From the NCBI GenBank assembly GCA_017544525.1, contig JAFYEA010000018.1:1-64000 (forward strand): a stretch of 64,000 nt of DNA, read 5' to 3'. Positions 32,107 to 47,930 of this stretch are shown one piece after another (the stretch's first letter is position 1; each line of letters opens with the position of its first letter). Source of the DNA: Bacilli bacterium (GTDB lineage Bacteria > Bacillota_I > Bacilli_A > RF39 > UBA660). Made by a program: the position numbers and the translations under genes. The notes beneath the pieces are model-generated. The model had not been told where the DNA came from and did not search any database. It worked only from the letters and a program-made list of their open reading frames with translations.

Positions 32107-32134
32107 AAAACACTAATAATTGTTAGTGTTTTTT
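32105..32134. terminator. Bidirectional terminator
   Basis: AAAAAACACTAA, 6-base loop, TTAGTGTTTTTT between two convergent genes. Confidence 0.8.
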
Positions 32135-32791
32135 AATTAATACATACATTATTTTATCAAAGTGATTATCTATTTGAGTTATACCATATTCTATTATTTC
32201 AAAATTATTATTTTTTAATTCTTTGAATAAAGTATCAAAATTAACAATTTTACAACTGGTAGTTGCCACATTTAACTCTTTATTTGATTCTTGATGTGTT
32301 CTTTTAATATTATTAAAAGCTTTTGATATATCACTTTCACATTCTTTTATACCATCTCCCATAGTTAGTATTAATGAATATCCATTTTCATTTAAATGAT
32401 TATATATGAATTGATAGAATTTGTTTCTATCTTCTTTTAGAACAAGCATATGAAGACAGGCAACTGAAAATATAAAACCAAAAGTATTATCTAATTTATC
32501 TTTTGTTACATCTAATACTTTGTAGTTGTTTTTATGTTTTTGGTCTTGATTAATACAATATTTAATTGCTTCTTTAGATATATCAGTGGCTAGAACATTA
32601 TAGTTTATATTTAATAAATATCTAGCATCTCTACCTTCACCACAACCTATTTCTAATAAATTTGTATCTTTTAGATTGTATTTAACAATAATATCTTCTA
32701 CTATTTTGGTATTATTATTTGTTGACCAAACTAAACCTTTATTATGAACTTGTTTATATCTTTTATCATATGCTTCATAATATTTTTTCAT
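32123..32791 (-). CDS. Class I SAM-dependent methyltransferase
   Basis: 222 aa. Motif I LLEIGCGEGRDARYLL (about 45-60), motif II VLATDIS, then FGFIFSVACLHML at the motif IV position, as in the Methyltransf_25/11 group. Substrate unknown; the acidic-free active site gives no hint. Weak Shine-Dalgarno (ATGGTGAA). Probably monocistronic. Confidence 0.8.
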   Translation of the reverse strand: MKKYYEAYDKRYKQVHNKGLVWSTNNNTKIVEDIIVKYNLKDTNLLEIGCGEGRDARYLLNINYNVLATDISKEAIKYCINQDQKHKNNYKVLDVTKDKLDNTFGFIFSVACLHMLVLKEDRNKFYQFIYNHLNENGYSLILTMGDGIKECESDISKAFNNIKRTHQESNKELNVATTSCKIVNFDTLFKELKNNNFEIIEYGITQIDNHFDKIMYVLIKKH

Positions 32792-32824: not shown

Positions 32825-33352
32825 TTATTTGTTACATGCATTAATTGCTTTTTCTAATGCTTCTTTAGGATTATTAGCGCTTATACATTTAATTCTTTTT
32901 CTATCATCAAAGTATTTGTTAGACAGTTGTTTTGACCAACCACTAAAAGATTCAACAGTAATGATAGGGATACCTGCTTGATATGCGATTGCCATTTCCG
33001 TTAGCGTTCCACTTCCTCCAGATATTGCTATTATAACATCACATGATAAAACCAAAGTAAACTCTCGACCTCCGCCAATATCTAATCCCGAATTAATTAA
33101 TATTGTTGGTCTAAATTTACCAAATAATTTTTTAGATTTACATCCTGCAACTCCAACTGTAATTCCATCATTTTTACTTGCTTCTTTTGCTGCTTCAGTT
33201 GATAATGAAGTGTATTCTTTTTCCGCTCCATATACTAGTATATTTCCAGATTTAGCAATTAATTTACCCAATTCTTTTGCAAACATCATTGCTTCATTAC
33301 TATAGTTTAAATCTACTGCCGATCCCATTATTCCAATTTGTATTTTTTTCAT
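32825..33352 (-). CDS. SLOG/LOG-like nucleotide-binding Rossmann protein (TIGR00725-type)
   Basis: 175 aa. It opens with KIQIGIMGSAVDLN (nucleotide-binding loop), then GKLIAKSGNILVYGA and the family core SGGSGTLTEMAIAYQAGIPII (a GGxGTxxE motif), as in LOG/TIGR00725 proteins, whose members include nucleotide-sugar-type hydrolases and cofactor carriers. Start is ATG 33352 after AAAGGAGG; a longer frame to 33442 runs through a terminator. Expression is apparently controlled by the histidine leader peptide and attenuator upstream, so a role in histidine or purine-linked metabolism is worth considering, but that is inference. Confidence 0.7.
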   Translation of the reverse strand: MKKIQIGIMGSAVDLNYSNEAMMFAKELGKLIAKSGNILVYGAEKEYTSLSTEAAKEASKNDGITVGVAGCKSKKLFGKFRPTILINSGLDIGGGREFTLVLSCDVIIAISGGSGTLTEMAIAYQAGIPIITVESFSGWSKQLSNKYFDDRKRIKCISANNPKEALEKAINACNK

Positions 33353-33378
33353 ATTATTTCCTCCTTTTAAATTAAAAA

Positions 33379-33477
33379 CCATACAAGTAGTACTTGTATG
33401 GTATGTATTCTTAATACTAGATACAAGCACTACAAATAGCACTTGTAACTACAATAAATTAATGCAGTAACAAGTGC
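33379..33477 (-). promoter_or_regulatory. Five-segment transcription attenuator of the SLOG gene
   Basis: On the minus strand, five segments can pair in two ways. Segment 1 (33477-33470, GCACTTGT, inside the leader ORF) pairs with 2 (33446-33439, ACAAGTGC); 2 can instead pair with 3 (33430-33421, GTGCTTGTAT); 3 with 4 (ATACAAG within 33401-33393); 4 with 5. The 4:5 hairpin (CCATACAAG, loop TACTA, CTTGTATGG, T5) is an intrinsic terminator. 1:2 plus 3:4 prevents it, 2:3 allows it. Confidence 0.75.
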
Positions 33478-33521
33478 GGATTATTATGGTGGAATAAATT
33501 ATTAATTATTAGCTTTGACAT
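33459..33521 (-). CDS. Histidine-rich leader peptide (20 codons) of the SLOG gene
   Basis: ATG at 33521, Shine-Dalgarno AAGGAGTGAG 8 bases before, stop TAA at 33461-33459. Four of 20 residues are His (an adjacent HH pair at positions 11-12, further His at 16 and 20). A ribosome waiting on the HH codons leaves attenuator segment 1 free; one at the stop codon covers it. Followed by the attenuator, so its role is regulatory. Confidence 0.75.
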   Translation of the reverse strand: MSKLIINNLFHHNNPHLLLH

Positions 33522-33550
33522 AGCAATCTCACTCCTTTTTAATTAAATTA

Positions 33551-33578
33551 ATACTATCATATATATTTTTTGTGTCAA
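33551..33578 (-). promoter_or_regulatory. Promoter of the leader/SLOG transcript
   Basis: Minus strand TTGACA (33578-33573), 16 bases, TAGTAT (33556-33551). Confidence 0.7.
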
Positions 33579-33593
33579 ATATAAGATTTGACA
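33573..33593. promoter_or_regulatory. Palindrome joining two divergent -35 boxes
   Basis: TGTCAAAT, ATAAG, ATTTGACA: a perfect 8-bp inverted repeat in which each arm contains one of the two TTGACA boxes. A shared operator is possible. Confidence 0.5.
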
Positions 33594-33616
33594 TAAATAA
33601 TCAAGTGTGTTAATAT
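33588..33616 (+). promoter_or_regulatory. Promoter of the leader/M20 peptidase transcript
   Basis: TTGACA (33588-33593), 17 bases, TAATAT (33611-33616) with a TGT extension. A small hairpin ATCAGA/TCTGAT (33623-33639) lies in the 5' leader. Confidence 0.75.
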
Positions 33617-33657
33617 TATGCCATCAGAAATAATCTGATAGAAAGGATGTTATTTAT

Positions 33658-33717
33658 ATGAAAAATAATTTATTTAGTTGGCATCATCATATAGGTAACA
33701 CTTATACAAATAGATAA
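33658..33717 (+). CDS. Histidine leader peptide (19 codons) of the M20 peptidase gene
   Basis: Peptide MKNNLFSWHHHIGNTYTNR from ATG 33658, with GAAAGGATG about 10 bases upstream. Three consecutive His codons (33682-33690) follow one Trp codon, just as in hisL-type leader peptides. It ends at TAA 33715-33717, directly before an attenuator whose first segment lies inside the ORF. The peptide itself probably has no function; its translation is the sensor. Confidence 0.8.
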   Translation: MKNNLFSWHHHIGNTYTNR

Positions 33718-33828
33718 TTAATTCTATATAGGTATAAGTGTATTTTGTAATGCTTATACCTGTATGAATAAATAAATTTTGTTACTAATTATACAGGTTT
33801 AATATTAAATCTGTATTTTTTTATTTTT
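33698..33828 (+). promoter_or_regulatory. Five-segment transcription attenuator of the M20 peptidase gene
   Basis: Segments: A ACACTTATAC (33698-33707), B GTATAAGTGT (33732-33741, perfect complement of A), C CTTATACC then ACCTGTAT (33753-33765), D ATACAGGT (33791-33798), E TTAAATCTGT (33805-33814). B pairs perfectly with C over 8 bases, C with D over 8. D:E is a terminator followed by TATTTTTTTATTTTT. A:B plus C:D is the read-through form; B:C plus D:E terminates. Confidence 0.82.
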
Positions 33829-33869
33829 ATGGTATAGGCATAGTTTTTGAATAAGAAAGGAGATTAGTA

Positions 33870-34901
33870 ATGAAAGTAGAAAAAATATTATCTGATTTAG
33901 TAAGTTTTAATACTATAAAAGATAAACAGAATAAAGAAATAATGGATTATATTGAAATTTATTTAAATAAATATAATTTTAAAACTAAAAGAATTAAAAA
34001 ATGTTTAATTGCTTATAATGATGAAAATCCTAATATTGGATTTATAGGACACACAGATACAGTTGATTATGAATCTTGGGATGGTAATCCTCTTGAATTA
34101 AAAAAAGAAGGAGACAAATTAATAGGACTTGGTTCTTGTGATATGAAAGGTGGAATAGCAAGTGTTTTATCTACTATATCTAAATTAGATTTAAATAAAA
34201 ATAAAATTAGTTTATATTTTACTAATGATGAAGAAATAGGATTTGAAGGAATTAAAACTATTAAAGATATGATAGTTCCGAAAAATATAATAATAGGTGA
34301 ACCAACTAATAACGTTCCAATATATGGAACAAAAGGAGTTTTGGAATTAGAAATAGAATTATATGGAGTTAAATGTCACTCATCAACACCTGATAAAGGA
34401 GTTAATGCTATATATGAATGTGTTGACTTTATAAATAAAATAAAAAGATTTTATGAAAAAGATATTAAGAAAAATATTAACAATAATTTTGAAATTCCTT
34501 ATACTACTATGAATATAGGTATGATTAATGGCGGGGAGACAGTTAATTCTGTACCTGGTAAATGTAATATAACAATAGACTTTAGAATAGCTAATAATAG
34601 TGATGTTGAACTAATTATAAATAAAATAAATAAGCTATTAAAAAAATATAATTCAAAATTAAAAATTAAACAATCTATTTATCCTAAAATTAATAATAAT
34701 GACATTAGTTTTTTGGAGAATATTTCTAGTAAAAAACAAACAAAATGTTATATGACTGAAGGGTCGTATATTAATAAGAATTTTATAATATTAGGGCCTG
34801 GTCCAGATACTTCTCACCAAAAAAATGAATACATATATTTAAGTACTATTAATAAAACAGTAGAATTATATAAAAAAATAATTGAATATTATAATAAATA
34901 A
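33870..34901 (+). CDS. M20 family metallopeptidase (ArgE/DapE/dipeptidase type)
   Basis: 343 aa. Metal-binding pattern GHTDTVDYESWDGNPLELKKEGDKLIGLGSCDMKGG split over about residues 57-92 (His and Asp ligands), catalytic NDEEIGFEG (Glu pair), then GEPT, and a dimerisation domain with the His of CHSSTPDKGVNAI. A late GPDTSHQKNEYI supplies the last His. Such enzymes remove acyl groups from amino acids or split dipeptides. Because its transcript starts with a triple-His leader, cleavage of a histidine-containing peptide or acyl-histidine is a reasonable guess. Shine-Dalgarno AAAGGAG. Confidence 0.85.
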   Translation: MKVEKILSDLVSFNTIKDKQNKEIMDYIEIYLNKYNFKTKRIKKCLIAYNDENPNIGFIGHTDTVDYESWDGNPLELKKEGDKLIGLGSCDMKGGIASVLSTISKLDLNKNKISLYFTNDEEIGFEGIKTIKDMIVPKNIIIGEPTNNVPIYGTKGVLELEIELYGVKCHSSTPDKGVNAIYECVDFINKIKRFYEKDIKKNINNNFEIPYTTMNIGMINGGETVNSVPGKCNITIDFRIANNSDVELIINKINKLLKKYNSKLKIKQSIYPKINNNDISFLENISSKKQTKCYMTEGSYINKNFIILGPGPDTSHQKNEYIYLSTINKTVELYKKIIEYYNK

Positions 34902-47701: not shown

Positions 47702-47707
47702 TTGTTT

Positions 47708-47930
47708 ATAAACGTTGATTGGAAAAGTATATTTAATAATTATTTTAGAGAGTTAACATTTGGTGAAAGTTAATATAAGTATTAAATAGAAAGACACCAT
47801 GAGTGCTTAAAGAAGTTTAGTAGACTAAGCCGGTTAATACCGTTATTTATAAAGAGAGACTTTAGTTAGTAATTAAGGTGGTACCGCGGATTTAACAGTG
47901 ATTCGTCCTTTGGATAATCGCTGTTTTTAT
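47708..47930 (+). promoter_or_regulatory. T-box riboswitch, aspartate-specific
   Basis: Stem I with AGAGAG and an apical hairpin GTTAACATTTGGTGAAAGTTAAT (GGTG loop); specifier GAC (47793-47795) in the context GAAA-GAC-ACC. Consensus T-box AAGGTGGTACCGCGG at 47875-47889, then terminator AACAGTGATT (47894-47903) / AATCGCTGTT (47916-47925) with a T5 run. The bulge reads TGGT, implying G-U pairing if tRNA-Asp has the usual G73. Confidence 0.92.

Follow-up and report, generated by a model that had tools for sequence, protein, structure and literature searches.

The window considered here is the whole 64-kb stretch of DNA that was analysed, from a gut-type bacterium, and its intergenic region 33353-33869 contains the starts of two divergent transcription units. 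The plus-strand unit leads to a putatively regulated M20 peptidase gene (ArgE/DapE-like, 33870..34901, plus), and the minus-strand unit to a putatively regulated SLOG cluster-4 gene (32825..33352, minus), which is related to TIGR00725 with a score below the cut-off of that model. A SAM methyltransferase-like gene (32123..32791, minus) comes next after the SLOG gene in the same direction and is probably co-transcribed with it. According to the initial annotation, each strand carries a leader ORF with histidine codons, a five-segment RNA and a terminator; all of these elements were recovered, including the leader lengths of 19 codons with HHH (plus) and 20 codons with HH (minus). The plus leader, MKNNLFSWHHHIGNTYTNR (33658..33717, plus), has related leaders in close relatives and belongs to a subfamily referred to below as W-type. 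The minus leader, MSKLIINNLFHHNNPHLLLH (33459..33521, minus), belongs to an H-type subfamily and is matched by a covariance model of 17 plus-type leaders (E=1.5e-6). The 64-kb window has 42 ORFs that are 12-26 codons long and have a Shine-Dalgarno-like sequence; HH occurs in two of them, which are exactly these leaders.

Each leader is preceded by a Shine-Dalgarno region, at 33640..33649 on the plus strand (AAAGGA.GTTATTTATATG-like in relatives) and at 33530..33540 on the minus strand, as the annotation had stated. It had also given each leader a promoter, and promoter-like sites do exist (TTGACA-17-TAATAT with TG, 33588..33616, plus, for the M20 transcript; TTGACA-16-TAGTAT, 33551..33578, minus, for the SLOG transcript), but the consensus scan found six such patterns in the window against 6.4 expected from shuffles. 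Promoter patterns no commoner than this would suit an origin of the whole arrangement by chance, as AT-rich hairpins and short ORFs without function. Such an origin is extremely improbable, as it is contradicted by the comparative data given below, namely conservation, covariation, a fixed register and the matching of cargo to codons.

In the plus leader, the putative stall codons are one Trp codon (33679-33681) and the three His codons that adjoin it (33682-33690). They are followed by segment 1 (33698..33707), which forms 10 bp with segment 2 (p=0.03 against shuffles); by segment 2 (33725..33741), which pairs with 1 or 3 according to helix statistics and covariation; by segment 3 (33750..33766), which forms 17 bp with segment 2 (p=0.01) or pairs with segment 4; and by segment 4 (33790..33802), which forms either the antiterminator 3:4 or the terminator 4:5. 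Segment 5 (33805-33815) and the terminator T run extend over 33805..33828, and the hairpin folds at -9.7 kcal/mol. Besides the Trp codon, two features noticed by eye go beyond the initial annotation: a possible segment 0 (CATATAGGTA, 33688..33697), which by its complementarity may compete for segment 3 when free of ribosomes, and segment 6 (GGTATAGGCAT, 33831-33841), which is located 3' of the terminator and is complementary to segment 3. Most W-type relatives carry a AAGCAATG-like stretch after the terminator, with the same complementarity to segment 3. Segment 6 would occur in the read-through RNA only.

The minus leader repeats this layout. Its putative stall codons are two His codons (CAC CAT, 33486..33491, minus) placed 11 nt 5' of segment 1 (33470..33477), which forms 8 bp with segment 2 (33439..33451; p=0.05). 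Segment 3 (33418..33430) forms 9 bp with segment 2 (p=0.03), or an extended helix with one mismatch, and segments 4 (33402-33390) and 5 (33389-33378) make up an intrinsic terminator (33378..33402) followed by a T run. This was the only stem returned by the terminator scan of the window (counted on both strands; 0.1 expected), and the M20-side terminator was missed by that scan.

At the locus, neither RF00514 nor any other Rfam family attains its gathering score, and no T-box covariance match lies there. The sole T-box match of the window is at 47706-47913, before aspS, in agreement with the earlier statement that this genome has T-boxes; thus, the genome uses T-boxes alongside leader-peptide attenuators.

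Related leaders and their operons

An alignment of M20 proteins was scanned once against the species genomes, which gave 73 loci, and up to 450 nt of upstream DNA were read in 23 of them. The leader and its segments were found before all 16 close relatives of the M20 gene with upstream DNA (67-76% identity), the one at locus L007 being the most diverged; L014 is a further close relative, whose leader lies off the contig. The leader was absent before all seven distant relatives read (40-49% identity), and one scan of viral contigs returned no M20 relative.

Covariance models were then applied to 385 genomes sampled from the order to which one relative belongs. Of these, 10 were matched by the plus-type model (six with W-type leaders, three with H-type leaders only and one by chance), and 35 by a model of five His-type leaders (E<=0.01), W-type and R-type leaders included. 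A mixed model (R3), built on the 21-row alignment A5 (21 of the 27 rows of A4), matched 49 genomes (E<=0.05), a number that includes chance matches, matches of the ABC-F type discussed below and three unread ones at E~0.04 (G047, G093 and G184); its matches are not independent of the W, H and R types, since A5 has rows of all three. Matches L272-L275 of the mixed model, without a codon-run leader, were taken as chance, as were matches L104 (at the start of a ylqF-like gene) and L091 of the plus-type model. In all, 17 W-type, 34 H-type (33 of them scored) and 10 R-type leaders were read, together with seven leaders before ABC-F-like genes. Leaders that can be translated and that repeat the regulatory codon were found across the family, and the sensing codons are exchanged as a set (HHH or RRR), the Arg codons varying synonymously.

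The operons behind H-type leaders encode HisRS paralogues in 15 cases, of which 14 fall into one BLAST cluster with the L157 protein. The latter scores over the TIGR00442 cut-off, and its best family is PRK12420, where it stays below the cut-off; the fifteenth paralogue (L263) is cut by a contig end and is just under the cut-off. Two His leaders are followed by hisG (over its cut-off). Five H-type operons encode S51-like and S66 peptidases, one of them with hisS as the third gene, and M20 peptidases and acetyltransferases are also encountered. Operons of an S51-like and an MccF-like S66 gene under HHH leaders are located at 1540-5264 of L157, 3047-5480 of L162 and 1681-4114 of L158; hisS is third in L157, and in genome G015 only an hisS remnant with stop codons lies nearby. 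Two members of the family are degraded (L210 and L214). By eye, the L214 leader misses part of its segments and precedes an hisS paralogue whose frame enters transposase-like sequence.

A phosphoribosyltransferase-like and SLOG group is present in four H-type operons besides the window. The search with the SLOG protein in 146 genomes gave seven matches, two of them strong orthologues and five weak (29-34% identity). Each strong orthologue is the third gene of an operon opened by an HHH leader. Two further SLOG operons have HH leaders and are not independent evidence, since they were found through the leader models; at L096, the one weak match read of the five, no leader with two His codons was found.

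R-type leaders precede an M20 gene and then a further gene, which is acetyltransferase-like in four operons. At L269, under an Arg leader, argS is the third gene, and the first gene of this operon (384-1103) encodes a stand-alone B3/4-domain protein. An Arg-rich leader (RRRRLRRHLRTR) stands before a row of mutually similar genes at L260.

A class-wide search matched 9 of 296 genomes: two already known, two by chance (G038 and G680) and five, from other Bacilli, with HHH leaders before hisZ-hisG. The E values of these five with the mixed model (5.7e-6 to 0.009) overlap those of the chance matches G680 and G038 in the same search (0.003 and 0.007). Downstream of the five leaders, hisG is over its cut-off in every case, and hisZ is the best family of its product while remaining under the cut-off.

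Alternative helices, register and predicted switching

Covariation, which the initial annotation had named as a check, was detected in the mixed alignment for both of the mutually exclusive helices 1:2 and 2:3. In A5, 97.0% of the cells of helix 1:2 are paired and 14 cells are changed on both sides (2.7 in shuffles), and the corresponding values of helix 2:3 are 91.3% and 24 (7.3 in shuffles). None of 500 shuffles reaches the value of either helix, and slid versions score lower. At least as many pair types as in helix 1:2 occur in 356 of 500 shuffles, and the two-sided pair number of helix 2:3, a structure derived from the same alignment, is reached by 17 of 500. Covariation is weak within the M20 family alone, where the sequence hardly varies. 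In single leaders, helices with p<=0.05 were found in 17 (1:2) and 20 (2:3) of 33 H-type leaders, and in 6 (1:2) and 9 (2:3) of 10 R-type leaders. Mutually exclusive helices that include an intrinsic terminator are thus a property of the family.

The position of the codons is equally regular. Irrespective of the amino acid, 51 of 60 leaders have a distance of 10-13 nt between the last sensing codon and segment 1 (17/17 W-type, 27/33 H-type and 7/10 R-type, segment 1 being sought 8-31 nt away).

From the sequences, covariation, register and cargo observed we infer stalling, termination and the physiological signal, and ribosome-mediated attenuation is very likely the mechanism, His being sensed on the SLOG side and Trp and/or His on the M20 side, by one scaffold that carries His, Arg or Trp/His codons. 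RNA polymerase would synthesise a further ~150 nt during translation of the leader by a ribosome. Poor charging of the tRNA that reads the test codons would stall this ribosome, its leading edge stopping immediately before segment 1; segment 1 would then pair with 2 and segment 3 with 4, the terminator 4:5 would not form in time, and the gene would be transcribed. With good charging, the ribosome at the stop codon would cover segment 1, helix 2:3 would form, and 4:5 would end transcription. This is the geometry proposed by the initial annotation, and the comparison of genomes supports it strongly.

Folding calculations agree with this mechanism to a degree that depends on the leader type. When the full-length RNA is folded at equilibrium, the terminator prevails in most leaders, including the plus leader, almost wherever the ribosome is placed, and since no switch appears there in most of them, the model needs co-transcriptional kinetics. 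The RNA ahead of the ribosome was therefore also folded up to, but without, segment 5, with a standard ribosome edge of 13 nt; 30 of 34 H-type and 4 of 10 R-type leaders entered these counts, those left out including L210 (no terminator found), L214 and L221. The largest loss of segment 4 sequestration is predicted no more than one codon away from the last sensing codon in 12/17 W-type, 17/30 H-type and 4/4 R-type leaders (2.6, 4.8 and 0.9 expected). With edges of 11, 12, 13, 14 and 15 nt the counts are 13, 11, 12, 14 and 7 of 17 for W-type, 15, 15, 17, 17 and 16 of 30 for H-type, and 2, 2, 4, 2 and 3 of 4 for R-type leaders; in 12-13 of the 30 H-type leaders the largest drop is delayed by three to five codons (edges 11-14). 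In the cut RNA, the stalled and stop states differ by at least 0.2 in 12/17 W-type leaders, in only 10/30 H-type leaders, where mean sequestration is 0.75 stalled and 0.60 at the stop, and in 2/4 R-type leaders. The computed switching is thus clear in the W-type and weak in most H-type leaders.

In W-type leaders, the predicted sequestration of segment 4 is 0.45-0.46 with the ribosome five codons before the last His, against 0.62-0.64 at a distance of two to three codons (edges 12-14). The lower upstream value fits competition of segment 0 for segment 3 unless a ribosome covers it, and the absence of translation would then be a state of lower expression.

Amino acids sensed by the leaders

An aminoacyl-tRNA synthetase (aaRS) gene is found among the first three genes behind 18 of the 60 leaders (15 HisRS, 2 TrpRS and 1 ArgRS), and in 18/18 cases the enzyme is cognate to the leader codon. 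None of 200,000 label permutations reaches this match, a test that is optimistic, the counts not being independent since the leaders are related. The gene lists behind it were made by eye and by clustering, and some contigs end early. In three operons a non-cognate aaRS gene lies further along (that of ProRS in fourth place in L204 and L205, that of GluRS in sixth place in L207), perhaps in a separate unit. Amino-acid-linked cargo is thus present in relatives' operons for the H, R and W subfamilies, as distinct from the M20 and SLOG genes of the window itself. Some of the same genomes also have T-boxes directly before hisS (e.g. G007, G011 and G264) and trpS (e.g. G007 and G008).

The initial annotation had assigned histidine as the signal on both strands. 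For the SLOG side this holds well: judged by its sequence family, the minus leader very probably senses the charging of His-tRNA, and His is its best-supported signal because HisRS, hisG and, via the mixed model, hisZ-hisG accompany the H-type subfamily. For the M20 side the assignment to His is less certain, and the plus leader may sense Trp, His or both. A typical W-type leader reads W[RH]H[IM]GNTYT or near it, with one or two Trp and one to three His codons. Among the 17, window included, Trp is present in 16 and the last His in all; Arg or His is kept beside this invariant His, and a CGT Arg codon lies between Trp and the last His in 10. The Trp codon precedes the last His by two codons in 13 leaders and by three in the window, L010 and L013, and L009, one of the 13, has a second Trp three codons before. 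That Trp is kept while its distance varies favours selection on the codon.

The cargo of the W-type leaders bears on the same question. The gene next after M20 is acetyltransferase-like in 9 of 15 loci read (by eye; one checked by Pfam), and trpS is the second gene in L001 and L012 and, in L014, the third, after an acetyltransferase gene. The leader is visible in two of these trpS operons, and genomes G001 and G012 have two TrpRS genes each over the cut-off. No hisS was found in the 15 M20 operons read, yet at L003, under a WHH leader, a histidine-racemase-like gene follows M20. Similar genes occur behind two H-type leaders (L267, and L189/L215, the latter by eye). These genes had been called DapF-like by eye; in the two of three that were checked the best matches are histidine-racemase models, below their cut-offs.

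It is therefore possible, though we hold this only tentatively, that the plus leader is a tryptophan sensor, its His codons being bystanders fixed by the pairing of CATATAGGTA with segment 3, and that only the minus leader senses His. The persistence of Trp, the trpS genes with their second TrpRS and the lack of hisS all suit this, and the last His becomes a borderline stall site at edges of at least 13 nt. It is opposed by HHH in the window itself, by the last His in 17/17 leaders, by the racemase-like gene of L003, and by L007, which lost both Trp and the segment-0 match and retained KHH. A general sensor of slow translation, in which a stall at any W, R or H codon would induce and the plus strand would have no single target, is rather unlikely. 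Trp, Arg and His occur together in 10/17 W-type leaders and any stall before segment 1 would free the same RNA, but H-type and R-type leaders have runs of one amino acid, and their aaRS genes among the first three are cognate in 16/16. In the window, Trp and HHH both lie inside the permissive stretch of the plus leader, and the family evidence points to Trp at least as much as to His.

The mixed model also matches another kind of leader, before ABC-F-like genes (L195/L221, L264, L265, L266, L268, L270 and L271). These leaders share a similar RNA scaffold, with peptides such as MYINKVIGYTK, and look drug-type; two of the seven genes were tested, and both are ribosomal-protection-like ABC-F over the cut-off. 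Together with the conservation of H[IM]GNTYT in most W-type leaders, these seven loci raise the question of an arrest peptide, whose sequence would sense a drug or metabolite in the ribosome tunnel. However, the codons for NTYT lie in segment 1 and those for HIG in segment 0, where RNA pairing explains their conservation, and the exchange of His, Arg and Trp codons on one scaffold, with cognate aaRS cargo, also speaks against an arrest peptide, which we regard as improbable.

Known attenuators and a possible role in defence

The likeness to the enterobacterial hisL leader (RF00514), drawn by the initial annotation, stands in its logic, a ribosome stalled at His codons favouring antitermination, and fails at the level of an Rfam match at the gathering score. 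In contrast to the hisL layout as we presume it to be, the stall here lies before segment 1, and 1:2 with 3:4 forms the read-through state. T-box leaders likewise sense tRNA charging and do so without a leader peptide. Vecchione and Sello (2010) reportedly described a leader attenuator of an auxiliary, antibiotic-resistant TrpRS gene in Streptomyces, which by its description resembles the present family in leader attenuation of an auxiliary TrpRS and differs in phylum and cargo.

The earlier statement that Bacillota normally use T-boxes needs qualification. A 2010 study predicted His leader peptides before hisS* and hisZ in bacilli/Bacillus (PMC2965389), and a 2022 study (PMC9413887) did so for the his operons of three Firmicutes lineages, namely Erysipelotrichales, Peptostreptococcaceae/Lutispora and the B. 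cereus group. Thus, His leader attenuation in bacilli is not new, even on a HisRS paralogue. These published systems share with the present family a His-run leader, a terminator and antiterminator, and cargo of a HisRS paralogue or of his biosynthesis. The present family differs in also including operons of M20, SLOG, S51-like, S66 and acetyltransferase genes, codon versions for Arg and Trp/His that come with the cognate aaRS, a register that has been measured, and two divergent leaders within a single intergenic region. Amino-acid leader attenuation in Bacillota is also reported for the ilv leader peptides of S. aureus and Listeria (PMC5794164, PMC5864092), where it concerns branched-chain amino acids. 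The matches listed from the open-licence literature included neither Arg or Trp codon versions from bacilli nor such leaders on M20, SLOG, S51 or S66 genes, and this literature returned no paper on a leader peptide in RF39.

The cargo suggests a possible role, which we put forward tentatively: the leaders might act as alarms for charging stress, as part of an inducible defence against naturally occurring antibiotics that each inhibit a single synthetase, such as peptide-nucleotide, microcin-C-like or amino-acid-analogue inhibitors. An inhibitor would leave the cognate tRNA uncharged, the leader ribosome would stall, and the operon would make a spare synthetase (HisRS, TrpRS or ArgRS); various operons would add enzymes of the microcin-C-immunity kind (S51-fold and MccF-like S66 peptidases, acetyltransferases), M20 peptidases and LOG-type hydrolases, and a change of the test codons would direct the alarm to a different synthetase. 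In the microcin C system, MccE is an acetyltransferase. The spare TrpRS of the family is nearest to one named TrpRS II in PDB, and the L157 S66 product (Pfam Peptidase_S66) matches PDB sequences of the MccF-like 4e5s (2.7e-69) and of MccF (3.3e-40). For the S51-like protein, neither a Pfam family nor a PDB sequence-profile match was found, and its assignment, made by eye, draws on the predicted fold, a confident model of which matches peptidase E (E=8.4e-8, TM by target 0.61). The toxic part of microcin C is inactivated by S51 peptidases (PMC9239234), and among duplicated aaRS genes some are antibiotic-resistant targets (PMC9437257, PMC6804068). The peptidase cargo and these aaRS facts may hint at a defence against inhibitors of synthetases; simple scavenging of amino acids by starved cells would account for the M20 and S51-like peptidases equally.

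The family suggests that, in bacteria that use T-boxes as well, one attenuator scaffold has been re-addressed by codon swapping to His, Arg and probably Trp. Its cargo of extra synthetases and, in some operons, of MccF-like and S51-fold peptidases hints that starvation for a single charged tRNA, possibly caused by inhibitors of charging, is a natural stress for these bacteria, and it provides functional leads for M20, SLOG, S51-like and acetyltransferase genes that are otherwise unassigned.
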